From: Methylotenera sp. | Lineage (GTDB): Bacteria; Pseudomonadota; Gammaproteobacteria; Burkholderiales; Methylophilaceae | Reading direction: 5' to 3' | DNA length: 41,735 nt | Assembly: GCA_013140755.1 (NCBI GenBank) | Contig: JABFSF010000050.1 | Location: 1-41,735 of the forward strand | Shown: in pieces, positions 14,955 to 39,845 of the stretch | How the letters are laid out: every line of letters starts with the position of its first letter | Position numbering within the stretch: position 1 is the stretch's first letter | The notes under the pieces: model-generated | What the model was told of the DNA's origin: nothing | Databases searched by the model: none | What the model saw: only the letters and a program-made list of their open reading frames with translations | Program-made: the position numbers and the translations under genes

Positions 14955-15674
14955 ATGGTAACGATTACGCACCGACAAGATAACCAGCCCGTGTATGTAT
15001 TACACACTTATCCTTTTAAAGAAACCAGCTTGGTGGTAGAGCTGTTTGCGCAAGGGGTCGGACGCGTTGCCACCACGGCTAAAGGCGCACGCCGCCCACG
15101 CTCTGCCATGCGTGGCATGTTGCAAGCGTTTCAACCACTCACTGCAACTTGGTCTGGTAAGCAAGAACTTAAAACCTTACACAGCCTAGATTGGGCGGGC
15201 GGCTTACTCATGTTGCAGGGCGAAGCACTCATATGCGGCTTTTATCTCAATGAGCTGTTGCTACGTTTATTACCACGTGAAGACCCGCATGATGCCTTAT
15301 TTGAGTACTATAGTGCCACCCTGAAAAATTTAGCGCATAGCCAAAATTTAGCCACAACGCTTAGACGCTTTGAACTCAAATTACTACAAGAATTAGGTTA
15401 CGCTGTGCCACTTATTACCGATGAACATGGTGAAATAATCACCTCAGAAAAACAATACCGCTACCAAGCTGAGCACGGCGCATGTGCGCCAAACCCACGC
15501 CAAAATGGCGTACAATTATCAGGTAAAACCTTGCTCGATATGGCAAATGATAACTACACCGATGCAACAACACAAAGTCAAAGCAAGCAACTCATGCGCT
15601 ATTTGCTCGCGCATTACTTGGGTGATAAACCATTACATACTCGGCAGCTTTTAATAGATTTACAAGGGTTTTAA
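14955..15674 (+). CDS. recO: DNA repair protein RecO
   Basis: RecO loads RecA on SSB-coated DNA in the RecFOR pathway. The 239-aa protein begins with an OB-fold ([20 protein letters not shown], then [20 protein letters not shown]), typical for RecO, followed by a helical C-terminal part ([15 protein letters not shown]). Length is normal. It sits 31 bp after era and 1 bp before pdxJ, in the conserved era-recO-pdxJ-acpS arrangement. Confidence 0.95.
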
Positions 15675-16867: not shown

Positions 16868-18763
16868 ATGATAAAAGTAACCATACCGCTACTTATTTTA
16901 TTTGGCTTCTCTAGCATCACCCAATCCGCGCCCGACCTAGACCGTGCCATGGCCAACCCCAACAACTGGGCATACCCGCGCGGGCAATACAACAACCAAG
17001 GCTATAGCGAACTCAATCAAATCAACACCAGCAACGTAAAAAACCTCAAACTCGCATGGACGTTCAGCACAGGGGTCAATCGCGGCCATGAAGGCGCGCC
17101 TTTGGTCATTGATGGCGTTATGTATCTGCACACGGCTTTCCCCAACAATGTCTATGCGCTTGATTTAAACAACGATCAAAAAATACTCTGGTCATACTTT
17201 CCAAAGCAGGAACCCAGCACGCAAGCGGTGATGTGCTGCGATAACGTCAACCGTGGTTTGGGCTTTGGCGATGGCAAGATTTACCTGCAACAGAACAACG
17301 GAATTTTAGTGGCGCTTGATGCCAAAACAGGCACAGTGGCTTGGCAAGTACAGGTCAACGACCCCAAAACAGGCGCAACCAACACCAATGCCCCACAAGT
17401 GATTAAAGACAAAGTACTCACAGGCTGTGCAGGGGGAGAGTTTGGCGTACGCTGCTTTATGGCAGCGTATTACTTAAAAGATGGTGCATTGGCTTGGAAG
17501 GCTTACAGCACAGGCAGTGATGCGGATGTATTGATAGGCAGTGACTTTAACCAAGCCAATCCGCAATACAGTGCCTTAAGTGTTTATCAAGACGTGAATG
17601 GTGGTAACAAACAAGGCGGCTCATTTACACCGCTGCCCAATGAACAGCTCAAAATCGGTGAAAAAGACTTAGGCATACGCACATGGCTTAAACCCCAACA
17701 AGAGAAAGATGGCTGGCAGAATGGCGGCGGTGCCGTCACTGGTTACTTCTCCTTTGACCCTAAAACCAACCTTGTGTATTACGGCACTGGCAACCCTGGG
17801 GTGTGGAACCCTGACGTAAGGCCTGGTGACAACAAATGGGCCAGCAGTGTATTCGCCAGAGATGTCGATACTGGTGAAGCCAAATGGGCCATGCAAACCA
17901 CCCCGCATGATGAATGGGATTACGATGCCACCAATGAGGTGATTCTGTTTGACCGTAAAGAGCATGACAAGACCAAAACCTACGCCACGCAAATCAACAA
18001 GAACGGCTTTATCTACACCTGGCAGGCGGATAACGGCACTTTGATTGCGGCAGAGAAGGTGCATCCGTTTGTGAATTGGGCGACCAGTGTGGATTTGAGG
18101 ACGGGCGTGCCTGCGAAGGATGCAAAGTATAGTACGCACCAAGATGTCAATATGAAAGGTGGATGCCCAAGCTCTAATGGAGCTAAAGGTATGAGCCCTG
18201 CTGCCTACTCACCAAAAACTAATTTAGTTTATACACAGCTTTATCATATTTGTATGACTTACGAGCCAGTTGAATCTAAATATGCGGCTGGTCAGCCTTG
18301 GGTGGGAGCAACACTCACGCAATTTAAAGGACCTGATAATGTTTTTGGTGGATTGGCTGCTTATAATCCACTCAACGGCAAAATGGCTTGGTATAACAAA
18401 GAAAAATACTTAACAACAAGTGGTATTCTAACCACTGCCAACAACTTAGCATTTTATAACGCAGGCGACCGTTGGTTTAAAGCGTTGCATGCGCAAACTG
18501 GCAAAGAATTGTGGCGGTTTCAAGCTGGCTCTCCGGCTGTTGGCAACCCATTCAGTTACAGCCACAAAGGCAAACAATTTATTGCATTAACAACAGGAAT
18601 AGGTAGGATTGCAACTGGCGTCTATAGCGGCTATGTTGATAGCCTTGACGGAAGTACCGAGCGCGGTTATGCGCAAATGTGGGATGCGTGGGGGCCATTT
18701 CTAGCATATCCTTTTTCAAATAGTAATTCATCTGGTGCAATGCTTCACGTCTTCAGTCTCTAA
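16868..18763 (+). CDS. PQQ-dependent methanol/alcohol dehydrogenase, XoxF-like (lanthanide type)
   Basis: A 631-aa periplasmic quinoprotein. A signal peptide is visible with likely cleavage after TQSA (residue 21). Features of the MxaF/XoxF family are the vicinal cysteine pair Cys123-124 in VMCCDNVNRG, the metal ligands Glu191 (AGGEFGVR) and Asn309 (YYGTGNPG), and Asp351 in HDEWDYDATNE. The second aspartate, Asp353, two residues later, is the mark of lanthanide-dependent enzymes; calcium-type MxaF has Ala there. The family oxidises methanol or other primary alcohols and passes electrons to a cytochrome c. Neither a cytochrome (xoxG) nor a binding protein (xoxJ) gene is adjacent. The XoxF subclade is not resolved, and a multi-carbon alcohol substrate remains possible. 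Confidence 0.85.
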   Translation: MIKVTIPLLILFGFSSITQSAPDLDRAMANPNNWAYPRGQYNNQGYSELNQINTSNVKNLKLAWTFSTGVNRGHEGAPLVIDGVMYLHTAFPNNVYALDLNNDQKILWSYFPKQEPSTQAVMCCDNVNRGLGFGDGKIYLQQNNGILVALDAKTGTVAWQVQVNDPKTGATNTNAPQVIKDKVLTGCAGGEFGVRCFMAAYYLKDGALAWKAYSTGSDADVLIGSDFNQANPQYSALSVYQDVNGGNKQGGSFTPLPNEQLKIGEKDLGIRTWLKPQQEKDGWQNGGGAVTGYFSFDPKTNLVYYGTGNPGVWNPDVRPGDNKWASSVFARDVDTGEAKWAMQTTPHDEWDYDATNEVILFDRKEHDKTKTYATQINKNGFIYTWQADNGTLIAAEKVHPFVNWATSVDLRTGVPAKDAKYSTHQDVNMKGGCPSSNGAKGMSPAAYSPKTNLVYTQLYHICMTYEPVESKYAAGQPWVGATLTQFKGPDNVFGGLAAYNPLNGKMAWYNKEKYLTTSGILTTANNLAFYNAGDRWFKALHAQTGKELWRFQAGSPAVGNPFSYSHKGKQFIALTTGIGRIATGVYSGYVDSLDGSTERGYAQMWDAWGPFLAYPFSNSNSSGAMLHVFSL

Positions 18764-19949: not shown

Positions 19950-19979
19950 TTGTAATATTTACATTGTTTATGCAATAAT
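19950..19979 (+). promoter_or_regulatory. Possible promoter of the XRE-argA gene
   Basis: TTGTAA (19950-19955) and AATAAT (19974-19979) are spaced by 18 bp. Both hexamers are imperfect. The -35 would overlap the first operator-like site, and the second site would cover the expected transcript start. Confidence 0.35.
19951..19963 (+). promoter_or_regulatory. Candidate operator 1 (TGTAA-N3-TTACA)
   Basis: TGTAATATTTACA is a perfect inverted repeat with 5-bp arms and a 3-bp centre. It lies 45 bp before the start of the XRE-ArgA gene. An 11-of-13 match recurs exactly 30 bp downstream, which is close to three helical turns. Confidence 0.5.
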
Positions 19980-19980
19980 A

Positions 19981-19993
19981 TGTACAATTTACA
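19981..19993 (+). promoter_or_regulatory. Candidate operator 2 (TGTAC-N3-TTACA)
   Basis: TGTACAATTTACA matches the first site at 11 of 13 positions and keeps 4 of 5 arm pairs. It ends 15 bp before the ATG, a position suited to repression. Confidence 0.5.
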
Positions 19994-20008: not shown

Positions 20009-21643
20009 ATGTCAATTGGTTACGCTATTCGCAATACGCGAAAATCACACGCAATGACTTTAACCCAGCTCGCGAGCATCGCCGCGATCGATGCTGGCAA
20101 TCTTTCACGCATTGAGCGCGGCGCATTAGGCATCTCCGAGGTGTTATTGCGCAAAATTGCCACGGCACTCAACACTACGCCTGCCGAGCTTTATGCGCTC
20201 AGTGACGCACTTAATCAGCCGCATCTAACCCAAACACCAAGTGAGCCATTGCGCGCTGCGCTACAACGCCCTTTTTACGGTAACTCGCCCACACAAAACC
20301 TGATTAACGCAAAAGATTTTGTGCAGTGGTTTCGTTCTGCCACGCCCTATATTCACGCGTTTGGCGGGCGCACGTTTGTCATTGCTTTTGGTGGCGAAAT
20401 TGTGGATGAAAAGCAGTTTATTGCACTCACACATGATCTTAACTTACTTGCCAGCCTTGAAGTGCGTTTGGTGCTGGTGCATGGCGCACGACCGCAGATT
20501 GAGCAGCGTTTACGGCGCGATAAAATCACACCTATGATGCATCACGGCTTACGCATTACCGATGATGCAGCGATGGAGGCTGTGAAAGAGGCTAATGGTA
20601 CAGTGCGGGTAGAGATTGAAGCACTGCTCTCTATGGGCATCGCAAATTCGCCCATGGCGGGGGCGGATATTCGTGTGGCAAGTGGTAATTTTGTCACCGC
20701 TAAGCCGCTGGGCGTACGCGATGGCGTGGATTTGCAGCACACGGGTGAAGTGCGAAAAATTGATGCCATCGGCATTCAAAAACGGCTGGATGATAACGAG
20801 TTAGTACTACTTTCGCCCGTTGGATATTCGCCCACAGGTGAAACATTCAACTTAAGCCTTGAAGATGTCGCAGTGAGTACAGCCATTGCGCTAGATGCGG
20901 ATAAGCTGATTTTCTTGATGGATTCGCAAGGCGTACAAAATCTACGCGGTGAATTATTGCGTGAAATGACAGCTGAAAAAGCCAAAAATCTACTCAAAAA
21001 TGTACAGATGAGCGATGAACCAATCTACTTTTCTGAAGATGTGAATTACTACTTGCCCGCCGCCGTGCGTGCATGTGAGCATGGTGTGGCGCGTACGCAC
21101 TTGATTAGCCGCCATATTGATGGGGCAATTATTCAAGAGCTATTTACGCATGAAGGCATCGGCACCATGGTGACAGAACTGCCACTAGAAACCATGCGCC
21201 AAGCCAATATTGATGATGTAGGTGGCATTTTAAAGTTGATAGAACCGCTTGAAAATGAAGGTATTTTAGTGCGGCGTGGGCGCGAGCGCATTGAGATGGA
21301 AATCAACTATTTTTATGTAATGGAACACGACAATCGCACCATTGGCTGTGCAGCACTTTATCCATTTGACTTAGATAATCCTGCTGAAAAAATGGCAGAA
21401 TTTGCGTGTCTTGCGATAGACCCACAATATCGCGGAGGTGGACGCGGCGATAAACTATTTAACTATTGCCAAACACAAGCCAAAGCACTGGGTTTTAAAC
21501 AGATTTTTTGCTTAACCACACGTACTGAACACTGGTTTTTAGAGCGTAGTTTTACCGAAAAAACAGTAGATGACCTACCTGCTGAGAAAAAACAAATGTA
21601 TAACTTTCAGCGAAAATCTAAAGTTTTTATTAAATCACTTTAA
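20009..21643 (+). CDS. argA: N-acetylglutamate synthase fused to an N-terminal XRE helix-turn-helix domain
   Basis: From about residue 102 this is a complete classical ArgA: FVQWFRSATPYIHAF, an amino-acid-kinase-like domain (about 119-375) with VLVHGARPQIEQRL, and a GNAT acetyltransferase domain (about 392-540) with the acetyl-CoA loop QYRGGGRG (473-480). ArgA acetylates glutamate in the first step of arginine synthesis and is typically inhibited by arginine. Residues 3-65 form a Cro/C1-type helix-turn-helix (TLTQLASIAAIDAGNLSRIE, recognition helix about 29-36), followed by a 35-residue linker. The frame is continuous, and no internal start with a ribosome-binding site precedes the enzyme part, so the fusion appears real. 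At 544 aa it is about 100 longer than usual ArgA. argB follows after 59 bp. Autoregulation is my inference. Confidence 0.92.
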   Translation: MSIGYAIRNTRKSHAMTLTQLASIAAIDAGNLSRIERGALGISEVLLRKIATALNTTPAELYALSDALNQPHLTQTPSEPLRAALQRPFYGNSPTQNLINAKDFVQWFRSATPYIHAFGGRTFVIAFGGEIVDEKQFIALTHDLNLLASLEVRLVLVHGARPQIEQRLRRDKITPMMHHGLRITDDAAMEAVKEANGTVRVEIEALLSMGIANSPMAGADIRVASGNFVTAKPLGVRDGVDLQHTGEVRKIDAIGIQKRLDDNELVLLSPVGYSPTGETFNLSLEDVAVSTAIALDADKLIFLMDSQGVQNLRGELLREMTAEKAKNLLKNVQMSDEPIYFSEDVNYYLPAAVRACEHGVARTHLISRHIDGAIIQELFTHEGIGTMVTELPLETMRQANIDDVGGILKLIEPLENEGILVRRGRERIEMEINYFYVMEHDNRTIGCAALYPFDLDNPAEKMAEFACLAIDPQYRGGGRGDKLFNYCQTQAKALGFKQIFCLTTRTEHWFLERSFTEKTVDDLPAEKKQMYNFQRKSKVFIKSL

Positions 21644-21699: not shown

Positions 21700-22587
<888 letters not shown>

Positions 22588-23258: not shown

Positions 23259-23816
23259 ATGGCAGGCGAACGCAGACAACAAATTTTAGAAACATTGGCG
23301 AAGATGTTGGAGTCTCCCAAACGCGAGAAAATTACCACGGCTTCTTTAGCGGCTAAACTAGAAGTAAGTGAGGCAGCACTCTACCGCCACTTTGCCAATA
23401 AAGCGCAAATGTTTGAAGGCTTGATTTTGTTTATTGAAGAAACCATTTTTGGTTTAATCAACAAAATCAGCACTGAAGAAACTGAAGGCTTAAGGCAAGT
23501 GCAACGCATTGTCACCATGCTATTAGTATTTGCAGAAAGAAACCCTGGCATGACGCGCGTTTTGATTGGTGATGCTTTAGTGAATGAAGACGATAAATTG
23601 CAACTACGCATTAACCAATTGTATGACCGCATTGAAGTAACCTTAAAGCAAAGCCTGCGTATCGCCACGACCCAAACAGGAAACCAAGACCATGCAGAAG
23701 CGCAAGCAAATTTGATTGTGTGTTATGTGATTGGTCGCTGGCAACAATATGCTAAAAGTGGCTTTAAACGCAAGCCAACTGAGTTTACTGAACAGCAGTT
23801 ACCACACTTGCTATAA
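23259..23816 (+). CDS. slmA: Nucleoid occlusion factor SlmA (TetR family)
   Basis: SlmA binds specific chromosomal sites and disrupts FtsZ polymers over the nucleoid. The 185-aa protein starts GERRQQILETLAKMLE and has a TetR helix-turn-helix (ITTASLAAKLEVSEAALYRH, about residues 26-45), both closely matching SlmA. The ligand-binding-like helical domain includes NPGMTRVLIGDALVNE. Its target, ftsZ, is in the same window on the other strand. The ribosome-binding site AGGA lies 7 bp before the ATG. Confidence 0.93.
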   Translation: MAGERRQQILETLAKMLESPKREKITTASLAAKLEVSEAALYRHFANKAQMFEGLILFIEETIFGLINKISTEETEGLRQVQRIVTMLLVFAERNPGMTRVLIGDALVNEDDKLQLRINQLYDRIEVTLKQSLRIATTQTGNQDHAEAQANLIVCYVIGRWQQYAKSGFKRKPTEFTEQQLPHLL

Positions 23817-28622: not shown

Positions 28623-28662
28623 GCAGAACCTATTGCCCAACAGCCTAAAATGCTGGTTCTGC
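28623..28662 (-). repeat. 8-bp inverted repeat spanning the lpxC stop
   Basis: GCAGAACC (28623-28630) and GGTTCTGC (28655-28662) are perfect complements around a 24-nt loop that holds the lpxC stop codon and a nested CAGC/GCTG pairing. No T-run follows, so termination is uncertain. Confidence 0.35.
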
Positions 28663-29571
28663 TAGCATTTGCTTGGCGGTCATCGGTGCTATTTCTGCGC
28701 TTTGTTGCGCTTCAAATGTCGCATACTCCCAAGCAGCCTCATCTTGCATCAGTGCTCGTAATAATTGATTATTCAATGCATGGCCTGATTTATATGCATA
28801 AAATGCACCTAATATCGGGTGACCTAACATATATAAATCGCCAATCGCATCCAGCACTTTATGCTTAGCAAACTCATCGTCATAACGCAGACCATCCGCA
28901 TTGAGCACACGATACTCATCTAACACAATCGCATTGTCTAAACTTCCACCACGCGCTAACCCATTTGAACGTAAATACTCAACCTCGTGCATAAAACCAA
29001 ATGTTCGTGCGCGGCTAATTTCTTTAATGTAAGAGTCTGCAGAAAAATCAATTTTGACATTATTGCCAGAGTGCTCAAATACAGGATGATTAAACGCAAT
29101 GGTGAAGTCAATTTTGAATCCACTGTAAGGTTCAAATCGCACCCATTTATCGCCATCAACTACTTCCACAGTCTTTTTAACGCGGATAAATTTTTTAGGG
29201 ACTGCTTGCTCTTGCACACCAGCTTCTTGCAATAAAAATACAAACGGACCTGAACTTCCATCCATAATCGGGATTTCAGAAGCGTTGACTTCAACATAAA
29301 CATTATCAATACCTAAGCCAGCCAAGGCTGACATCACATGTTCAACAGTCGCAACGCGTGCGCCATTGGCCTCCAATGCAGAACATAGACGCGTGTCACG
29401 TACTGCATCAGGTGTTGCCAAAATTTCATTGGGTTGAGGCAGATCAACCCGTTTGAAAATAATACCAGTGTCGGGTGCAGCAGGCCGAAGGGTAAGAGTA
29501 ACCTTCTCGCCATTGTGCAATCCAACGCCTGTGGCACTAATCGCTTTTTTAAGTGTGCGTTGCTTTAACAT
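28645..29571 (-). CDS. lpxC: UDP-3-O-acyl-N-acetylglucosamine deacetylase
   Basis: LpxC is the zinc enzyme of the committed step of lipid A synthesis. The 308-aa protein starts [20 protein letters not shown] and has the zinc and active-site residues His78 (TVEHVMSAL), His237 and Asp241 (HKVLDAIGD), and His264 (KSGHALNN). [13 protein letters not shown] is intact. It lies downstream of ftsZ, the usual end of the division cluster in gamma- and betaproteobacteria, with a 148-bp gap that contains two hairpins. Confidence 0.98.
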
Positions 29572-29616
29572 GCTTATAACCTAACCATTCAAAACGTTTT
29601 AGCCATTCATTTTCAC

Positions 29617-29654
29617 TGGAGACGACTCCATATTTGCTTTATGAATCAAGCAAA
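29617..29654 (-). repeat. Two adjacent hairpins in the lpxC leader
   Basis: TGGAG-ACGA-CTCCA (29617-29630) and TTTGCTT-N8-AAGCAAA (29633-29654) are both perfect inverted repeats. They lie 46-83 bp before the lpxC start, within the only sizeable gap between ftsZ and lpxC. They could be mRNA structures or part of the ftsZ transcript end. Confidence 0.45.
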
Positions 29655-29719
29655 TAATAACATAATTCACCATCAGCAGTTTTAAGCCGACTAAATCGTT
29701 TAGCCTTAGCTAGACGGCC

Positions 29720-30895
29720 TTAGTCAGCTTGCTTGCGTAAAAATGCAGGAATGTCATACTCTTCCACACCCGACATTTTCATTGCTTCCACTTGTGCGCG
29801 ACGACTATTTGAGCCAAACACGGCTGGTGCTTCCTCCTCCACCATCACGCTACTACCCATAAATACGGGTTGCCCAGTGGTGCCATTACGCACGACTTCT
29901 TGCGTCATGACGCGTAGCTCTGGTTTTTGTTGGCGGCGTTGCGCGCCAGTTAAGCCTGTTGCTACCATCGTGACACGTAAGCCATCACCCATACTTTCAT
30001 CGAACACATTACCTACAATCACGGTTGCGTCTTCCGCGGTAAAGGCTTTAATGGTGTTCATCACATCGTAGTATTCTTTCATTTTGAAAGCACTTGAAGT
30101 AGTAATATTCACTAATACACCGCGTGCATTCGCCAAATTAACATCTTCCAGCAATGGGCTCGCAACGGCTTGTTCTGCAGCAATACGCGCACGCTCTGGG
30201 CCTGTAGCTAACGCCGAACCCATCATCGCCATGCCCATCTCACTCATCACAGTGCGTACATCAGCAAAGTCTACGTTGACCATACCAGCGCAGTTAATGA
30301 TCTCTGCAATGCCAGAAACCGCATTGTGCAATACATCATTGGCCGCTCTAAAAGCCTCTAAAAATGGCACATCTTCGCCCAAGACTTCCATCAATTTTTC
30401 ATTAGGAATCACAATGAGCGAATCAACATACTTTGATAACTCATCTAGACCATCAGAGGCCACTTTAGTGCGTTTCCCCTCAAAAGCAAAAGGTTTGGTC
30501 ACCACGGCCACAGTTAAGATACCCATTTCTTTAGCGATTTGTGCAATCACTGGCGCAGCACCTGTGCCTGTACCACCACCCATACCTGCAGTGATAAAGA
30601 GCATATCTGCACCATCAATCAGTTCGGCAATTGCGTCACGGTCTTCTAGTGCTGCTTCACGCCCAACTTCAGGCTTAGCACCCGCACCTAAACCACGCGT
30701 CATTGATTCACCAATTTGTAAAATGGTTTTTGCTTGGCTTTTCTTCAAAGCCTGCATATCCGTGTTTGCGCAAATAAACTCAACACCGCCGACGTTTTTT
30801 TCAATCATGTGTGCAACCGCGTTGCCGCCGCAACCGCCTACACCAATGACCTTAATCACGGCTTCTTGTGAATTTTTTTCCATAATTTCAAACAT
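29720..30895 (-). CDS. ftsZ: Cell division GTPase FtsZ
   Basis: FtsZ polymerises into the division ring. The protein (391 aa from ATG 30895) has KVIGVGGCGGNAV, the tubulin signature GGGTGTGAAP (about 106-115), and the C-terminal tail EEYDIPAFLRKQ that binds FtsA and ZipA. I choose MFEIMEK as the start, as in other betaproteobacteria; the GAGGAG site lies 8 bp before it, whereas a GTG and an ATG two and three codons earlier are too close to the site. It follows ftsA after 89 bp. SlmA, its antagonist, is encoded in the same window. Confidence 0.98.
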   Translation of the reverse strand: MFEIMEKNSQEAVIKVIGVGGCGGNAVAHMIEKNVGGVEFICANTDMQALKKSQAKTILQIGESMTRGLGAGAKPEVGREAALEDRDAIAELIDGADMLFITAGMGGGTGTGAAPVIAQIAKEMGILTVAVVTKPFAFEGKRTKVASDGLDELSKYVDSLIVIPNEKLMEVLGEDVPFLEAFRAANDVLHNAVSGIAEIINCAGMVNVDFADVRTVMSEMGMAMMGSALATGPERARIAAEQAVASPLLEDVNLANARGVLVNITTSSAFKMKEYYDVMNTIKAFTAEDATVIVGNVFDESMGDGLRVTMVATGLTGAQRRQQKPELRVMTQEVVRNGTTGQPVFMGSSVMVEEEAPAVFGSNSRRAQVEAMKMSGVEEYDIPAFLRKQAD

Positions 30896-30984
30896 ACTCA
30901 TCACTCCTCTTTTTAAACTTGCGATTTCTAAATTACTTCTGCCTTTTTACTGCGACTACCTAATACAACTACATTGCCTACTAC

Positions 30985-32223
30985 TTAAAAATTTCCCGCA
31001 AACCAACTTTTCATGCGTTCTAAAATTCTGGCAAACGAGCTTGATTCCATCTGCCCAGTCAAATGTCTTTCTAACTGCTGCTTACCCATGAGCACTAAGC
31101 CCACGGCTGTTGCATAACGTGGATTACTGACCACCTCAGACAATCCGCCTACATAACGCGGCATACCAAGGCGCACTGGCATATGAAATATTTCCTCACC
31201 CAATTCCACCATGCCACGCATCATGGCCGACCCACCTGTAATCACAATGCCTGAAGCAATCATTTCTTCCATACCACTACGGCGTAGTTCATTAAGCACT
31301 AGCTCATACAACTCAACCACACGTGGCTCTAATACTTCTGCCAAAGTTTGTACAGAAAGTTGGCGTGGTTCACGACCATCCACCCCTGGTACTTCAACAA
31401 CTTCACGTGGGTCTGCCAGTTGGCGTAATGCACAGCCATGTTTGATTTTGATATCTTCAGCCGATTGCGTAGGCGTACGGAAAGCCACGGCCACATCATT
31501 GGTCATTTGGTCGCCAGCAATGGGTACAACTGCCGTATGACGAATCGCACCTTGTTTAAATACGGCAATATCAGTCGTGCCGCCACCAATATCCACCAAA
31601 CACACGCCTAACTCTTTTTCATCATCGGTCAACACAGCGAGGCTTGATGCAAGCGGCTGTAAAATCAAATCACTCACTTCAATGCCGCAGCGTTTAATGC
31701 ACTTCACAATGTTTTGCGCCGCAGCTACTGCGCCTGTAACGATATGCACTTTGACCTCAAGCTTCATCCCGCTCATACCAAGCGGCTCGCGTACATCTTC
31801 TTGCCCATCAATAATGAATTCTTGTGTCAGTATATGTAGGATTTGTTGGTCTGCTGGCAGAGCAATAGCACGCGCAGTTTCTATCACGCGGTCAACATCC
31901 ATTTGTGAGACTTCTGCATCTTTAATTTTCACCATGCCATGTGAGTTCAAGCTCTTGATGTGGCTACCTGCGATACCCGTGTAAACATTGTTAATTTTGC
32001 AATCCGCCATGAGCTCGGCTTCTTCGAGCGCACGCTGGATGGACTGCATGGTAGATTCGATATTGACCACCACGCCTTTTTTGAGGCCGCGAGAGACATG
32101 CTGCCCCAAACCAATCACCTTCACTGTACCTTCTGGCTGTAATTCAGCAACGATAGCCACGATTTTTGATGTCCCAATATCGAGACCGACTATTAAGTTT
32201 TTATCTTCTCTGATTCTGCTCAT
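30985..32223 (-). CDS. ftsA: Cell division protein FtsA
   Basis: FtsA is the actin-like ATPase that anchors FtsZ to the membrane. The 412-aa protein starts NLIVGLDIGTSKIVAIVAEL (phosphate-1 motif), contains VCLVDIGGGTTDIAVF (phosphate-2) and GIVITGGSAMMRGM (adenosine motif), and ends with the amphipathic membrane-targeting helix FARILERMKSWFAGNF. AAGGA lies 7 bp before the ATG. It is 20 bp from ftsQ. Confidence 0.98.
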   Translation of the reverse strand: MSRIREDKNLIVGLDIGTSKIVAIVAELQPEGTVKVIGLGQHVSRGLKKGVVVNIESTMQSIQRALEEAELMADCKINNVYTGIAGSHIKSLNSHGMVKIKDAEVSQMDVDRVIETARAIALPADQQILHILTQEFIIDGQEDVREPLGMSGMKLEVKVHIVTGAVAAAQNIVKCIKRCGIEVSDLILQPLASSLAVLTDDEKELGVCLVDIGGGTTDIAVFKQGAIRHTAVVPIAGDQMTNDVAVAFRTPTQSAEDIKIKHGCALRQLADPREVVEVPGVDGREPRQLSVQTLAEVLEPRVVELYELVLNELRRSGMEEMIASGIVITGGSAMMRGMVELGEEIFHMPVRLGMPRYVGGLSEVVSNPRYATAVGLVLMGKQQLERHLTGQMESSSFARILERMKSWFAGNF

Positions 32224-32243
32224 AATTTATCCTTTGCGTAAAC

Positions 32244-33053
32244 TTAAGTTACGACTTCAGTCTTTTTAACTACATTGTTAATCTTTACTTCATTTGGTTT
32301 TGTTTGAGCTTGCTTAAATACCACCCCCGCTGGCTCTATACTCTTTTCCCGCTGCAATTCTGTTGGCTTGCGCACCGAAAATCCATTGGGATAACGCAAA
32401 TCTGCATAAGCAATTTTTTTATTCAACCCTGCAATGGTGTTGCGATAAACTGAAGTGAATTTTTCCAATCTCGATTGCATATCCGTTCTGCCCAACTCAA
32501 TCACCATTGCATTATTTGCCGTAATTTGCCATGCGCGACGCGGTGTCAGCGCGAGCGTTGCGATATGTAAATTTGCACGTTTTAGCACTTGGTTAAATGC
32601 ATCATATTGTGATGAAACTTCTATCACGCCATCTTCTGGCCCATAAAATACAGGCAAATCTCCACCTGATGCGGCATGAAACAATTCTCCGTGCGTATTT
32701 ACCAAAGCAGCAGCACCCCATCGCGCCATTGCTTGATGCTCCTCAATACTCACCTCTAGCTTATCTGGCCAGCGACGACGCACACTCACATTGCGTGCCC
32801 AAGGTAATTTCTCAAATGCATCACGCGCTTTAACTAAATCTAGCGTAAAGAAATTACCCTTTAAATGTTTAGCTACAATGAGTTTTATTTGTTCTCGACT
32901 CACATGCTGCAATTCACCCTCTACCTTGACTTCACGCAAAGGAAATATTGGCAAATGCACCACCACATAAAGTGTTGCATAAAGCATCGCCACTACACTA
33001 AGCGCATAAAGTAAGTTAGCAATCCAATTCAGCAGTGTAGGTTTATCCCACAT
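32244..33053 (-). CDS. ftsQ: Cell division protein FtsQ
   Basis: FtsQ is a bitopic membrane protein linking early and late divisome parts with FtsB and FtsL. The 269-aa protein has a short cytoplasmic N-terminus, one membrane helix (about residues 10-31), the POTRA domain beginning [20 protein letters not shown], and the beta domain with [20 protein letters not shown]. The C-terminus carries a Lys/Val-rich tail. It overlaps the ddl end by 11 bp and has GGAG 8 bp before its start. Confidence 0.95.
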
Positions 33054-33951
33054 GCGCTAACTCCAAAATACGCAACACCAGCGCATCAAAGCCAATCCCT
33101 GCCGCCTTTGCTGCCATTGGTACTAGGCTATGGTCTGTCATGCCTGGGCTCGTATTCACTTCTAAAAAATAATGTTTACCTGCTTCATCCATCAAAAAAT
33201 CTACGCGTCCCCAATCGCTACATCCAATGACATTAAACGCCTGCAAGGCCTCTTGCTGAATCTGCGCTTCTTTTTCACTACTCAAACCACTTGGGCATCG
33301 ATATTCAGTGTCATCACGCAAATACTTTGCCTCATAATCGTAAAACTCGTTTTTTGGCACGATACGCACAATCGGCAATGCGCTATCGCCCAATATCCCA
33401 ACGGTGTATTCACCTCCGCCCACAAACTGCTCAGCGATTACCAGTGGGTCAGATTCTGCTGCCAATTCATATGCTGCTTTTAACGCACCAGCCACTTTTA
33501 CTTTGCTAATACCGATGCTTGAGCCTTCATTGGCAGGCTTCACAAATAGTGGCAACCCCAGCTTTTTTTCAATCGCATCAAAATCTGAATCAGCATTCAC
33601 TAACTCAAATGCTGGAGTGCTTATCCCAGCAGCCGTCCACATCATTTTGGTGCGCCATTTATCCATACCAATGGCTGAAGCCATCACACCACTACCTGTA
33701 TAGGGGATGCCAAGAAGCTCCAATGCACCCTGCATAGCACCATCTTCACCAAAGCGACCATGCAAAGAAATCATGGCAAGGTCATAATCTTCCAAATCAT
33801 GCAATGGACGTGTGGCAGGATCAAACGCTTCTGCATTCACCCCTTGCCTCTGCAAGGCCGCCAGCACGGCACTGCCACTTTTGAGTGAAACTTCACGTTC
33901 ACCTGATTTTCCGCCGAATAACACGGCTACTTTTCCAAATTGATGCCTCAT
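33043..33951 (-). CDS. ddl: D-alanine--D-alanine ligase
   Basis: Ddl makes the D-Ala-D-Ala dipeptide for peptidoglycan. The 302-aa protein is an ATP-grasp enzyme with [52 protein letters not shown], and the C-terminal [18 protein letters not shown] with the metal ligands. It is of the DdlB type found in division clusters. The start ATG overlaps the murB stop (ATGA), and that junction lies in a 21-bp tandem duplication. Confidence 0.97.
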
Positions 33952-33989
33952 TTTCTAGCCCCTAGCTCCCAGTCTCTAGCCCCTAACTC
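33948..33989 (-). repeat. 21-bp tandem duplication at the murB/ddl junction
   Basis: On the minus strand the units 33969-33989 (GAGTTAGGGGCTAG then AGACTGG) and 33948-33968 (GAGCTAGGGGCTAG then AAAATGA) match at 17 of 21 bases. The second unit supplies the murB TGA stop and the first two bases of the ddl ATG. Confidence 0.8.
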
Positions 33990-34868
33990 TCCGATTACTT
34001 TCACTTCTTGTTGCAAAGTTACCCCATGTTTTTCCAACACTGTTTCACGGATATGTTTAATCAACAATTCAATATCTAACGCTGTAGCATTGCCCACATT
34101 CACAATAAAATTAGCATGTTTTTCAGACACTTGCGCCCCACCAATGATGTAGCCTTTCAACCCACTCGCCTCAATGAGCCTTGCTGCAAAATCTCCATCA
34201 GGATTTCTAAAAGTTGAACCTGCACTAGGCAAATTAAGGGGCTGTGAGGCTAACCTTTTGGCCAATAATGTTTTAATTTTTTGTGAGGACTCATTAACAT
34301 CACCATTTGCCAATATGAGCCAAGCAGCAACAAACCATTCATCTGCCACTGGCTTTTCAATATGGCGATAAGTTGGTACAAACGCACTCGCATCACGCGT
34401 TGTTAATTCACCCTGCTTGCCAATCGTAGTAACACGCCTCACCACATTCCAAGTTTCACTACCATAGCAACCTGCATTCATGGCAAGTGCGCCGCCCACC
34501 GTGCCTGGAATACCTGCAAAAAACTCAGCCCCAAACTTGGATTCTTTTGCACAAAATTTAGCGAGTTTGGCGCATGTTACGCCAGCTTCGGCATACACCA
34601 AGTCACCCTCCATTTTTAGTTCAGTCAATGCGTTGTGCATCAAAATTACCGTACCGCGTATGCCGCCATCGCGCACCAATAAATTTGAGCCTAAACCTAC
34701 AAAATAGACCGCTTCATCTTGCGGTAAATGTGCTAAAAATCCTTGTAAATCGGTTAAATCGGTTGGTACATAAAAACGATCCGCACAGCCGCCTACACGC
34801 CAGCTAGTGTGGCGCGACATGGGCTCATTGATGAGCAACTTGCCTTGATGTTGTGCGATTTGCTTCAT
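33948..34868 (-). CDS. murB: UDP-N-acetylenolpyruvoylglucosamine reductase
   Basis: MurB is the FAD enzyme that reduces UDP-GlcNAc-enolpyruvate to UDP-MurNAc. The 306-aa protein has [18 protein letters not shown] (FAD binding), [20 protein letters not shown] with the catalytic serine, and [20 protein letters not shown]. It is the type I class. The last 13 residues, [13 protein letters not shown], are encoded by two copies of a 21-bp unit and extend past the normal end EVKVIGE. It sits 3 bp after murC and overlaps ddl by 4 bp. Confidence 0.97.
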
Positions 34869-34871
34869 CTT

Positions 34872-36272
34872 TTATGCCTTATTTGCCATATTTTTAGTGT
34901 TAGTTGCTACTTGCCCAATAGAACCCGCACCCATCACAATCACCACGTCATCCGCTTGAGTAATATCCAAAATCGCTTGAGGCAATGCATCAGTCGTTTC
35001 TACAAATAAAGGCTCAACCTTGCCAGCCACACGTATTGCTCGAATGAGCGAACGCGTATCTGCCGCCACAATCGCAGCTTCACCTGCTGAATAGACTTCC
35101 GTGAGTAGCACCACATCAGCACCTGAGAGCACTTTGACAAAATCTTCAAAACAATCGCGTGTACGTGTGTAGCGATGCGGTTGAAACGCCATCACCAAAC
35201 GGCGATGCGGAAAAGCTGCACGTGCTGCCGCAATCACTGCTTGCATCTCTACTGGGTGGTGCCCGTAATCATCAATCAACGTAAATGTGCCACCTGCTTT
35301 AGCTGCCACTTCACCATAACGCTCAAAACGTCTGCCTACGCCTTTAAATTCTTTCAAGGCTTTAATCATGGCCTCAGGCGGTACATCTAACTCATCGGCA
35401 ATTGCGATTGCCGCCAGCGCATTGAGCACGTAATGATTACCTGGCAAGTTGAGTGTCACCCCAAATTGCGTGGTTTTGCCATTAATAATTTGTACAGTAA
35501 AGTGCATTTTTCCATCATCAGCACGTATATTTGTAGCGCGCACTTTTGCATCTTCACTAAAACCATACGTGGTCACTGGTTTAGTCACGCGCGATAAAAT
35601 TTCTCGCACATTCGCATCATCCACACACACCACCGCCATGCCCCAAAATGGTAATTGCTGTAAAAATTCTACGAACGCACTTTTGAGCTTTTCAAAACTG
35701 TGCTCGTATGTATCCATGTGGTCTTGGTCAATGTTGGTCACCACCGCCATCACGGGGGTTAAGTGTAAGAATGACGCATCTGACTCATCAGCTTCCGCCA
35801 CGATGTATTCACCTGTACCTAACTTGGCGTTGGTATTAGCGGCTTCTAACTTACCTCCAATCACAAAAGTAGGATCCATGCCTGCCTCGGCCAAAATGCT
35901 GGCGATTAAACTCGTGGTTGTGGTTTTGCCATGCGTACCTGCCACGGCAATGCCTTGCCTAAAGCGCATGAGCTCTGCCAACATCAAAGCACGTGGCACC
36001 ACTGGAATATTTTTAGCGCGCGCGGCTTTCACTTCAGGGTTTTCTTCATTCACAGCGGAAGACACCACCACGACATCCGCTGCTTTTACATTTTCTGCGG
36101 CATGACCTTGATACACCGTTGCGCCAAAGCTTGTTAAGCGTTTGGTGGTAGCGTTACTTGCCAAATCTGAGCCGCTCACATTGAAATCAAGGTTAATGAG
36201 CACTTCTGCAATACCGCTCATGCCTGAGCCGCCGATGCCTACAAAATGTATGTTTTTAACTTTGTGTTTCAT
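34872..36272 (-). CDS. murC: UDP-N-acetylmuramate--L-alanine ligase
   Basis: MurC adds L-Ala to UDP-MurNAc. The protein (466 aa) has [19 protein letters not shown] at the N-terminus, the ATP loop [12 protein letters not shown], and the C-terminal [16 protein letters not shown] with YSAGE. I choose the ATG at 36272 because it overlaps the murG stop in ATGA, has a GAGGTGG site before it, and matches the family start; an in-frame codon six positions upstream lies inside murG. Confidence 0.98.
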
Positions 36273-37333
36273 TTTGCCACCTCGATACAAACGGCTGCCA
36301 CATCTGCGGTTGCATTGGGCTTACCTAATTTTTTAGCTGCAATCGCCATTTCCAAACACTGTTCACGCGTTAATCCGCGCAAAATATCGGCTAATGCTTC
36401 AACACTGAGTGCCTTTTGTTGCACTAAGATTGCTGCCCCTGACTCTGCTAAATAACTTGCATTGGTAGTTTGGTGGTCATCCACCGCCGCAGGGAAAGGC
36501 ACCATCAATGCGCCTAAGCCAATTGCAGAAACCTCTGCCACCGTGAGCGCACCTGCGCGGCAAATCACAAAATCTGCCCATGCGTACATTTCTGCCATAT
36601 TTTCAATATAGGCACGTGCCTCCACTACCACATCAGCTAACGCATAATTTTTTTTCAATGTCTCGATGTGTTTAACCCCAGACTGGTGAATTACTTGAGG
36701 TCGTTGCATTTCTGGTAACTGTGCAATCGCCTTTGGAATCACTTCATTCAATGCCTGTGCGCCTAAGCTGCCACCTACCACAAGCAAACGTAATACACCT
36801 GTGCGCCCCGCAAAACGTTGCTCTGGTTGCGCCTGTACCGTAATATCATTACGTACTGGATTACCAAGCAACTGCGCATCATCACCAAATGCGGTAGGGA
36901 ACGCCGCCAAAATACGCGTTGCAAGCTTCGCCAGCACTTTATTGGTTAGTCCAGCCACTGAATTTTGCTCGTGAATCACCAATGGAATTCCCAACAATTT
37001 CGCCATTAACCCACCTGGAAATGCAGCAAAACCGCCCATGCCTAGTACCACATTAGGTTGATGTTGTCTTATCGCACTTACACTTTGACTAAAAGCCTTT
37101 ATCAATTTCACTGGCAATAACAACCAGCCTAGAAAGCCTTTGCCACGCACGCCTTGCATGGTAATCATGGCTTTATGATAGCCTTTGCCTTCAATAAGGC
37201 GATTCTCCATCCCGCCTTCTGTGCACAGCCACACAATGTGCCAGCCCTGTGCTTGTAAAGCATCAGCTACCGCCATGGCTGGATACACATGTCCACCTGT
37301 ACCTCCTGCCATCACCATTAGGGTTTTACTCAT
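36269..37333 (-). CDS. murG: Undecaprenyldiphospho-muramoylpentapeptide beta-N-acetylglucosaminyltransferase
   Basis: MurG converts lipid I to lipid II on the cytoplasmic face of the membrane. The 354-aa protein has the GT28 motif [58 protein letters not shown], and the donor site [14 protein letters not shown]. It overlaps ftsW upstream and murC downstream, each by 4 bp. Confidence 0.98.
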
Positions 37334-38493
37334 ACAGGTAATCCCTTCTGTAAGCGTCTGTTTTCAAAATCAATACGCAACAAAATCGCCATCGCAATAC
37401 AGTTAGCCAAAATGCCACTGCCGCCAAATGAGAGCAAAGGCAATGTCAGCCCTTTAGTTGGCAACAAGCCCATATTCACGCCCATGTTAATAATGCCTTG
37501 CACGCCTATCCACACACCTAAGCCTTGCGCCAATAAAGCACCAAAATAACGTTCGTTCTCTATTGCTTCTTTAGCAATGCCAAAAGCACGCATCACTATC
37601 CAAGCAAACAGTGCCACAACAGTGGTCACTCCAACAAAACCAAGCTCTTCCGCAATCACTGCCAATAAAAAATCAGTATGTGCTTCAGGTAAGTAAAGTA
37701 GCTTTTCAACGCTGGCACCTAAGCCCACACCAAGCCATTCGCCACGACCAAATGCAATTAGCGCGTGTGAAAGTTGGTAACCCTTACCATACGGATCTGC
37801 CCAAGGATCCATAAAACCAATTACACGTTCTAATCGGTACGGTGAGCTCCAAATCAAAAACACAAAACCTACCACGAGTAACACAATCAGCCCGCCAAAG
37901 ATACGTGCATTGATGCCACCCAACCAAAGAATAGAAATTGAAATAGCGGCAATTACAGCAAACGCACCAAAGTCTGGCTCACGTAATAACAATCCGCCTA
38001 CCACCAACATCACCATGAGCATTGGAAAGAAACCGTGCCTAAAGCTATCCATCACCGCCGCTTTGCGCACGGTGTAATCCGCCACGTACATCGCCGCAAA
38101 TAACTTCATCAACTCAGAAGGTTGCAGGTTAATCACAAACAATGACAACCAGCGGCGACTACCCCCAACCACACGACCAATGCCTGGAATCAGCACTAAA
38201 ACAAGCAATGCCAAGCCAATTAAAAATAAGTAAGGTGCCATTTTTTGCCACCAGGCCACGGGAATGTTAAACGCCACAAAAGCAGCACTTACGCTAATCA
38301 CAATAAAGACTGCTTGACGCACTAGGTAGTAACTGCTGTTATGCCCCACGGCTTTATCGGCCTCAGCAATGGCAATCGATGCGGAGTACACCATCACCAA
38401 GCCGATACCCAATAAAATCAGCGTAACCCAAAGCAAGCCCTGATCATAACTAGGTGCGTTTATGCGCTCGCGATTAAGCATGGTGGCAATCAT
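37330..38493 (-). CDS. ftsW: Septal peptidoglycan polymerase FtsW
   Basis: FtsW is the SEDS glycosyltransferase of the divisome. The 387-aa polytopic protein (about ten helices) has [34 protein letters not shown] with the SEDS signature, and [19 protein letters not shown], and ends with [15 protein letters not shown]. It overlaps murD upstream and murG downstream by 4 bp each. The partner transpeptidase gene ftsI would be expected beyond the right window edge. Confidence 0.97.
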
Positions 38494-39845
38494 GCGGCCT
38501 CCTTAATGCGGTTTACCGCATTCACAAACACCTCTGCACGATGCACATAGTTTTTGAACATATCAAAGCTGGCACAAGCGGGAGAGAGCAACACGGCATC
38601 GTCTTTTTGCGCCAGCTTTTTGGCGATATTCACAGCTTCAGGCAAATCGATTGCCCGATATAAGGCCACGCCCGTGCTCAACAACTCAGCCTCAATCAAT
38701 GGTGCATCCCGCCCAATCAGCACCACGGCACGAGCGTTATCTGCAACTGCTGCTTTTAAGGGAGAAAAATCTTGACCCTTACCATCACCCCCAGCAATGA
38801 GCACCACTTTTTGTGGCAAACCAGCCAGTGCCGCACAAGTAGCACCTACATTGGTGCCTTTTGAATCATCAAAATAATCCACATCATCAATATTGGCGAC
38901 CCACTCCACGCGATGTGGTAAGCCTTTAAAGTTGTATAGTGTTTGCATAATAGGTGCATAATCCAAACCGATACCACGACACAGTGCGATAGCAGCTAGG
39001 GCATTAGCAGCATTGTGTAAGCCTGCAATTTTTAAATCTTGCGTATTCATCAAATCATGTGTGCCGCAGCAAAGCCATGTAGCGTTTGCCACTTCGCGCA
39101 AACCGTAGCTCGTTTCATCTTCTGGAACATCTAATCCAAATGTCACTTGCACCAACTTAGGCCGCGCCATCAACATACTCCACGCATCATCGCGATTGAG
39201 CACTTGCAATTGAGCGTTATAAAAAATACGTGCTTTAGCAATAGCGTATTCCTGCATACCCGCATATCTATCCATGTGATCTTCAGATAAATTAAGCATG
39301 GTTGCAGCGTCAATGCGTAAGTTGCTGGTAGTTTCTAACTGAAAGCTCGATAGCTCTAACACGTAAACATCAGGTGTTTCCATACCAAGAGCCTCTAGCA
39401 CAGGCAAGCCAATATTGCCTGCTACAATAGTGTTTAAACCAGCCGCTTTACACATTTCACCTACCAAAGTAGTCACCGTGGTTTTACCATTAGCCCCTGT
39501 AATCGCAATCACCTTGGCATTGTGATTGCGATATTGTGCAAACAACTCCACATCACCAACCACTGTCACGCCTCGCGCAATCGCCGCTTGAATTTCAGGC
39601 TCAGCCAAAGGCACTCCAGGGCTCGCAACAACTAAATCTACATCTCTAAATAATGCCGCTGTGAATGCTCCCACGCTTACTTTTGCATCAGGAAACTCTG
39701 TTCTAAGTGCGTCTAAATTTGGCGGGTTATCACGTGAATCTGCCGCAGACAAGCGTGCGCTTTGCGCATGTAACCAGCGCAAAGCGGAGAGGCCTGTGTC
39801 ACCTAAGCCTAAAACCAACACGTTTTTGTCTTTAAGTTGCATCAT
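38490..39845 (-). CDS. murD: UDP-N-acetylmuramoylalanine--D-glutamate ligase
   Basis: MurD adds D-Glu to UDP-MurNAc-L-Ala. The 451-aa protein has [17 protein letters not shown], the ATP loop [28 protein letters not shown], and the C-terminal [20 protein letters not shown]. The start overlaps the mraY stop by one base (TAATG), and a second ATG follows immediately. All Mur-ligase motifs appear intact. Confidence 0.98.

Follow-up and report, generated by a model that had tools for sequence, protein, structure and literature searches.

Enzyme and DNA-binding domain are combined in one chain in PutA, NadR and BirA, which act as transcriptional repressors besides and exert feedback through a metabolite of their pathway. 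These proteins belong to other pathways and folds; to our knowledge, none of them is an arginine enzyme. ArgR, a hexameric protein, couples arginine to the transcription of arg genes. Classical N-acetylglutamate synthases (ArgA of Neisseria gonorrhoeae, 2r8v, of E. coli and of P. aeruginosa) consist of an amino-acid-kinase-like (AAK) and a GNAT domain, and a review of these enzymes (PMC4490483) nowhere mentions DNA binding or a helix-turn-helix. In the excerpts of that review used here, the N. gonorrhoeae enzyme (ngNAGS) forms a D3 hexamer with two-fold symmetric pairs of interlaced N-terminal helices; arginine binding moves the N-terminal helix and reshapes the hexamer.

The window, a stretch of 41,735 nucleotides from Methylotenera sp., encodes a protein, here XRE-ArgA, that has the AAK and GNAT domains, substrate residues and arginine-site motif of classical ArgA. 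It differs in about 100 extra N-terminal residues with a helix-turn-helix (HTH) of the XRE type (Table 1). The reading frame starts with ATG and runs through 544 codons with no interruption. HTH_3 (PF01381), by which XRE/Cro regulators are recognized, matches residues 7-61 above its cut-off in the Pfam scan (E 2.3e-5, 24.8 bits vs 23); HTH_26 also exceeds its own cut-off, and HTH_31 and HTH_19 stay below theirs. AA_kinase covers residues 122-367 and GNAT families match from residue 429. The amino-acid N-acetyltransferase equivalog NF003641 spans residues 100-544 (E 1.6e-206, 686 bits vs a cut-off of 344), and TIGR01890 scores 573 bits vs 203: in domains and equivalog score, this is a classical ArgA. 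The original prediction of an XRE-type HTH in one frame with a full ArgA, some 100 residues ahead of the ordinary enzyme, is confirmed by these matches. The genome (2.61 Mb, 99.6% complete) has a single argA; the only further match is the adjoining argB.

Table 1 Features of the xre-argA locus, in positions of the window.
Feature	Position	Strand	Basis
xre-argA: XRE/Cro HTH and full N-acetylglutamate synthase, 544 aa	20009..21643	+	ORF, Pfam, equivalog matches
XRE/Cro HTH domain, residues 3-66	20015..20206	+	Pfam HTH_3 7-61; dN/dS 0.057
Variable linker, residues 67-102	20207..20314	+	dN/dS 0.225, mean pairwise identity 0.17
Amino-acid-kinase-like domain, residues 103-390; K299, E377, motif ELFTHEGIGT	20315..21178	+	Pfam, arginine-site residues
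GNAT acetyltransferase domain, residues 391-544	21179..21640	+	Pfam, residue equivalents
argB (acetylglutamate kinase), 59 nt 3' of xre-argA, possibly co-transcribed	21703..22587	+	TIGR00761
Predicted operator 1, TGTAATATTTACA, overlaps -35 box	19951..19963	.	palindrome search, promoter layout
Predicted operator 2, TGTACAATTTACA, 30 bp from operator 1, over probable transcription start	19981..19993	.	
Predicted -35 box TTGTAA	19950..19955	+	read by family promoter layout
Predicted -10 box AATAAT, 18-bp spacer, TG before	19974..19979	+	read by layout; family consensus spacer 17-bp

Elsewhere in the window, a 631-aa ORF at 16868-18763 (+) looks by eye like a PQQ-dependent alcohol dehydrogenase, which fits a methylotroph. 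The SlmA nucleoid occlusion factor (NF007015, 280 bits) is encoded at 23259-23816 (+), shortly 3' of argB and a HAD-family ORF, and the region 28645-39845 (-) holds ordinary cell-wall and division genes (LpxC, FtsZ, FtsA, a glycosyltransferase-28 protein and a Mur ligase).

The fusion is a family trait. At E <= 1e-60, 174 of 187 Methylophilaceae genomes have an ArgA match, with all 24 genera represented, and the fusion is in frame in every genus (24/24); named records include Methylotenera, Methylophilus, Methylobacillus, Methylovorus and Novimethylophilus (best 80 of 105 confirmed loci). HTH_3 matches all 41 aligned XRE-ArgA members (E <= 0.001). Outside genera g2 and g16, the matches listed start at residue 1-3, except those of G181, G056 and one of two G153 pieces. 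The small genomes of g2 and g16 (mostly 0.7-1.4 Mb) have a diverged HTH, for which reason their matches begin only near residue 90-100. Loss of the HTH in these streamlined genera, suspected from matches that start near residue 94, was rejected: a diverged HTH stands in the same frame in 21/21 loci read (13 genomes out of 24 with a match in g2, and 8 out of 16 in g16), and HTH_3 is above cut-off on the argA frame in 10/10 genomes tested from these genera. The two well-complete family genomes with no ArgA match at E <= 1e-60, G013 and G015 (both g2; 91 and 99% complete), have lost the gene or carry a strongly diverged one. In a single genome (G181; locus L162, contig C11), argA has a stretch of N and a disrupted HTH frame in its 5' part; this locus was left out of the operator and selection counts. 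The HTH-argA set contains only the best loci of the searches and is weighted to close relatives; exact duplicates were dropped, as were one truncated protein (selection and residue counts) and one upstream region shorter than 80 nt (dyad count). With the frame kept in 24 of 24 genera, chance, a local assembly error and a start-codon artefact are rejected; the sequencing or assembly error considered at the outset was looked for across the matching genomes and not found.

At the order level, 372 of 399 genomes match ArgA. Among the matches listed from this search, those outside the family start at residue 80 or later, save that of G501, which extends to residue 35 only by crossing two stops; the frame of this locus (L132) contains no HTH. 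At the class level (214 of 321 genomes match), none of the listed matches outside the family begins before residue 53; 13 begin at residue 53-77, six of them with internal stops. A profile of the 116 HTH sequences gave no match, even at E values as high as 10, in 58 argA loci without an HTH, and three positive controls matched. That search covered the loci, their open frames and six frames of about 600 nt 5' of argA; the 58 loci are the 23 best-scoring outside the family and 35 with open frames of at least 500 among the matches listed from the order search. Separate hth and argA genes in relatives, the arrangement that would have refuted the original prediction, were thus looked for in these 58 loci and not found. 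Among the loci examined, the fusion was not seen outside Methylophilaceae. In a quick tree, the outgroup splits from all HTH-ArgA rows with support 100; the tree has long-branch warnings for the streamlined rows, L183 was dropped, and only the outgroup split and change counts were used. One ancestral fusion event is the simplest reading of this distribution.

Selection distinguishes the HTH from the linker. Computed on 186 pairs drawn from 116 sequences, dN/dS amounts to about 0.057 in the HTH, 0.225 in the linker, 0.021 in the AAK domain and 0.038 in the GNAT domain, rough values (dS is near 1.2) that serve for region-to-region comparison only. The 116 sequences have a mean pairwise identity of 0.56 in the HTH and of 0.17 in the linker, and Arg11, Leu32, Ser33 and Glu36 are invariant (116/116). 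The HTH of XRE-ArgA is under purifying selection, so internal initiation is unlikely as the normal mode of translation. Codons 1 and 16 are the only Met codons ahead of the FVQWFR motif, where GTG/TTG codons are also present; a start near codon 100, named beforehand as a way in which the fusion could prove spurious, was looked for and not found. The HTH could still be a relic or a merely structural part of the enzyme, being less constrained (0.057) than AAK (0.021) and GNAT (0.038). But it is far more constrained than the linker, keeps four residues in 116 of 116 sequences, is retained in all 21 streamlined loci read and is accompanied by conserved operators, and we give this explanation almost no credence.

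The catalytic and arginine-site residues of ngNAGS are present as well. We took the residue roles (substrate/catalytic and arginine binding) from excerpts of PMC4490483. K299 and E377 (116/116 each) are the equivalents of the arginine-binding K201 and E270, and R423, E464, R535 and S537 (116, 116, 116 and 115 of 116) those of R316, E353, R425 and S427; the counterpart of S392 is Thr503 in all XRE-ArgA sequences. The arginine motif is kept in 115/116. To judge from these residues, the enzyme part looks active and arginine-sensitive.

Upstream of argA we found what is expected at the promoter of a self-regulating XRE/Cro protein: palindromic predicted operators. They are 13 bp long, of the form TGTA-N5-TACA (T-type) or TGC-N7-GCA (C-type), and usually come in pairs about three helical turns apart. 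The exact TGTA-N5-TACA occurs within 200 nt in 57 of 94 distinct HTH-argA upstreams (0.38 expected), twice in 26. The looser dyad TGYN7RCA is present within 120 nt at least once in 103/116 HTH-argA upstreams (16.0 expected) and two or more times in 87/116 (1.56 expected); for HTH-less argA, whose 23 outgroup upstreams are few and differ in base composition, the counts are 6/23 (3.1 expected) and 0/23 (0.32 expected). Pairs 29-31 bp apart occur in 70/117 loci (shuffle mean 0.1, maximum 1). The exact tandem site is found once each in 31 of 187 genomes, in 28 of these directly 5' of argA, and never in the reversed control. The three tandem sites away from argA belong to G142, G143 and G170.

In 47 non-redundant promoters with 30-bp operator spacing, the consensus reads TTGCAT, 17 bp, TATAAT, with the -35 box inside operator 1 and operator 2 beginning 2 bp past the consensus -10 box. 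In 23 of the 47, the best match to the -10 box falls at the consensus position, and in 11 it falls three bases further on. Since these rows were picked by the pattern, the information content of operator vs spacer was not used. Streamlined genera space their operators differently: 41-42 bp in five g2 loci, 52 bp in two g2 loci and 50-51 bp in g16, or 3.9-4.0 and 4.8-5.0 helical turns. That helical phasing is kept across changed spacings is suggestive only, with few lineages and some dyad pairs out of phase (e.g. 39, 45 and 48 bp).

The dyad is missing in 13 of 116 upstreams: three streamlined loci and ten Methylophilus-like ones (L023, L027-L031, L045, L065, L067 and L105), which have no canonical dyad within about 75 nt 5' of argA. 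These ten have TTTGCAAT...ACC and TTTTGCA at the same places, possibly a changed operator, and their HTH residue 30 is Ser where others have Gly. Across the set, Gly30 goes with a dyad in 100 loci, and Ser30 occurs without a dyad in 12 and with one in four, a pattern with two supported independent pairs only, from which we draw no conclusion.

Which protein binds these sites? Of 64 positions, HTH residue 40 goes best with operator type (T vs C): the two agree in 87 of 90 loci, C-type operators going with Gln. This association has 3-4 independent switches only, such that a sign test cannot reach 0.05. In the streamlined genomes G001 and G008 (99% complete each, one contig), the ArgA HTH is the sole HTH_3 match, and both operators are retained. 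A different regulator might bind the palindromes while the ArgA HTH acts elsewhere: the genome of the window has 18 HTH_3 matches, and ArgA is only the predicted binder. Yet nothing else resembles the ArgA HTH at E <= 0.01 in nine genomes, bar three weak matches in G054, and the window's own genome has no second such protein at this threshold. The covariation with residue 40, the operators of G001 and G008 and the lack of paired dyads in all 23 HTH-less argA upstreams likewise make a different regulator very unlikely. The ArgA HTH likely binds the paired operators; another regulator could share them where a genome has further HTH_3 proteins, as could a non-HTH_3 regulator.

Downstream, argB lies 3' of argA in 121 of 140 HTH-argA loci, a set with some redundancy, at gaps of -8 to 2752 nt (median 63 nt); none of the 23 outgroup loci has argB at this place. 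No conserved gene was found 5' of argA (thiF in 1/133 loci). A genome-wide search, which covered T-type operators, gave 41 TGTAN5TACA sites in the genome of the window vs 38 for the reversed control. Besides two at argA and one at window position 14992, 33 of the 38 remaining sites lie inside ORFs of at least 110 codons, and behind none of the 38 was an arg gene recognised, judged from first residues only. A second exact TGTAATATTTACA (L184:1368; G000 contig C82:19367) stands within a 209-aa ORF, about 35 nt past its start, with a 375-aa ORF ahead of it; by eye the two ORFs look like metW and metX, and the copy is possibly there by chance. A wider regulon is not supported in this genome, the T-type sites being about as many as in the reversed control and mostly inside genes. 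Because the paired operator is found essentially only at argA, the predicted target appears to be argA, plus argB by read-through where it follows. Of the regulatory role first proposed, one part stands: selection on the HTH, the paired operators and the G001 and G008 genomes support well that the fused HTH would be a working transcription regulator. Control of the whole pathway is not supported.

The C-terminal domain of ArgR (PF02863) has no match in 187 family genomes, that of the window included, nor in 150 order genomes (control 8/14). As the absence is order-wide, it was rejected as special support for the fusion. According to the excerpt of PMC5343134 used here, gammaproteobacterial groups have a conserved ArgR, which other classes lack.

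We propose that XRE-ArgA probably, at about 0.68, has two roles: it works as an N-acetylglutamate synthase and it represses its own argA(-argB), with arginine as the likely co-repressor. Standing before the N-terminal helix, its HTH domains could be displayed as two-fold pairs, a geometry that fits palindromes: where the N-terminal helices of the hexamer interlace, they would bring HTH domains together in pairs, which would bind each palindrome. One hexamer would have three HTH pairs, which suits two phased sites, and could hold both on one face of the DNA. Seated on both operators, it would block RNA polymerase. With arginine as co-repressor, the signal that inhibits the enzyme would also stop its synthesis.

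That the protein would repress and not activate is judged from site position only: operators on the -35 box and just past the -10 box form a layout usual for repressors. Activation of its own promoter by XRE-ArgA is compatible with where operator 1 lies, but that operator overlaps the -35 box and operator 2 follows the consensus -10 box after 2 bp; we deem activation highly improbable. The intact arginine site suggests that arginine probably sets DNA binding. Autorepression could also work with no arginine sensing, the HTH gauging the amount of ArgA and arginine acting on the enzyme alone. The operators do sit at argA itself, and the linker, which is long, under weak constraint and of variable length, may uncouple HTH and ArgA. 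Against this, the arginine site is intact, and the HTH directly precedes the helix that, according to the excerpts of PMC4490483, moves on arginine binding in ngNAGS; we consider such an arginine-blind repressor unlikely. Extended to the whole family, the autorepressor with arginine as co-repressor would be a self-contained device at the entry to arginine synthesis: an active hexameric ArgA with three HTH pairs on two phased operators, in which arginine, via the same N-terminal helix, controls activity and synthesis. For this picture in full, we hold the odds to be even.

Methylophilaceae include abundant streamlined aquatic methylotrophs, and in the planktonic members two-component systems and sigma factors are greatly reduced (excerpts of PMC6794327). 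Retention of the ArgA HTH is the more striking for it: if the proposal is true, even streamlined genomes in which no HTH_3 protein besides ArgA was found have kept the device. The fusion is a concrete candidate for transcription-level arginine control in one family in which the ArgR C-terminal domain was not found, and the operator sequences and spacings are immediate targets for binding assays. The open-access papers searched yielded no description of an XRE-ArgA fusion or of argA control in Methylophilaceae, in agreement with the original prediction, which knew of none.

Among known systems, XRE-ArgA resembles PutA, NadR and BirA in that enzyme and DNA-binding domain share one chain; at the level of sequence it has the residues of an intact enzyme, an HTH and a putative cognate operator, and it may be a bifunctional enzyme-repressor of this kind. 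As proposed, it would resemble ArgR in coupling arginine to arg gene transcription as a hexamer; ArgR differs in being a separate, unrelated protein, and its C-terminal domain is the one with no match in the 187 family genomes. BzdR of Azoarcus has a similar build, an N-terminal XRE HTH, a linker and an enzyme-derived C-terminal module (excerpts of PMC3602430), and the BzdR-like model NF006015 weakly matches XRE-ArgA, in the HTH part only. The C-terminal part here is ArgA, not the shikimate-kinase-like domain that marks the BzdR subfamily. According to the same excerpts, that domain of BzdR has lost its activity, BzdR controls benzoate degradation, and the bifunctional HTH-shikimate kinase chimera (Q1) is synthetic. 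Unlike BzdR, XRE-ArgA is the product of its genome's only argA and keeps the catalytic residues. It offers a natural test of how a still-active enzyme becomes a repressor, for which the BzdR case rested on a synthetic chimera (PMC3602430, as excerpted); if the proposal is true, XRE-ArgA would show in nature, with the enzyme still active, the step from enzyme to repressor that is presumed in the history of BzdR.
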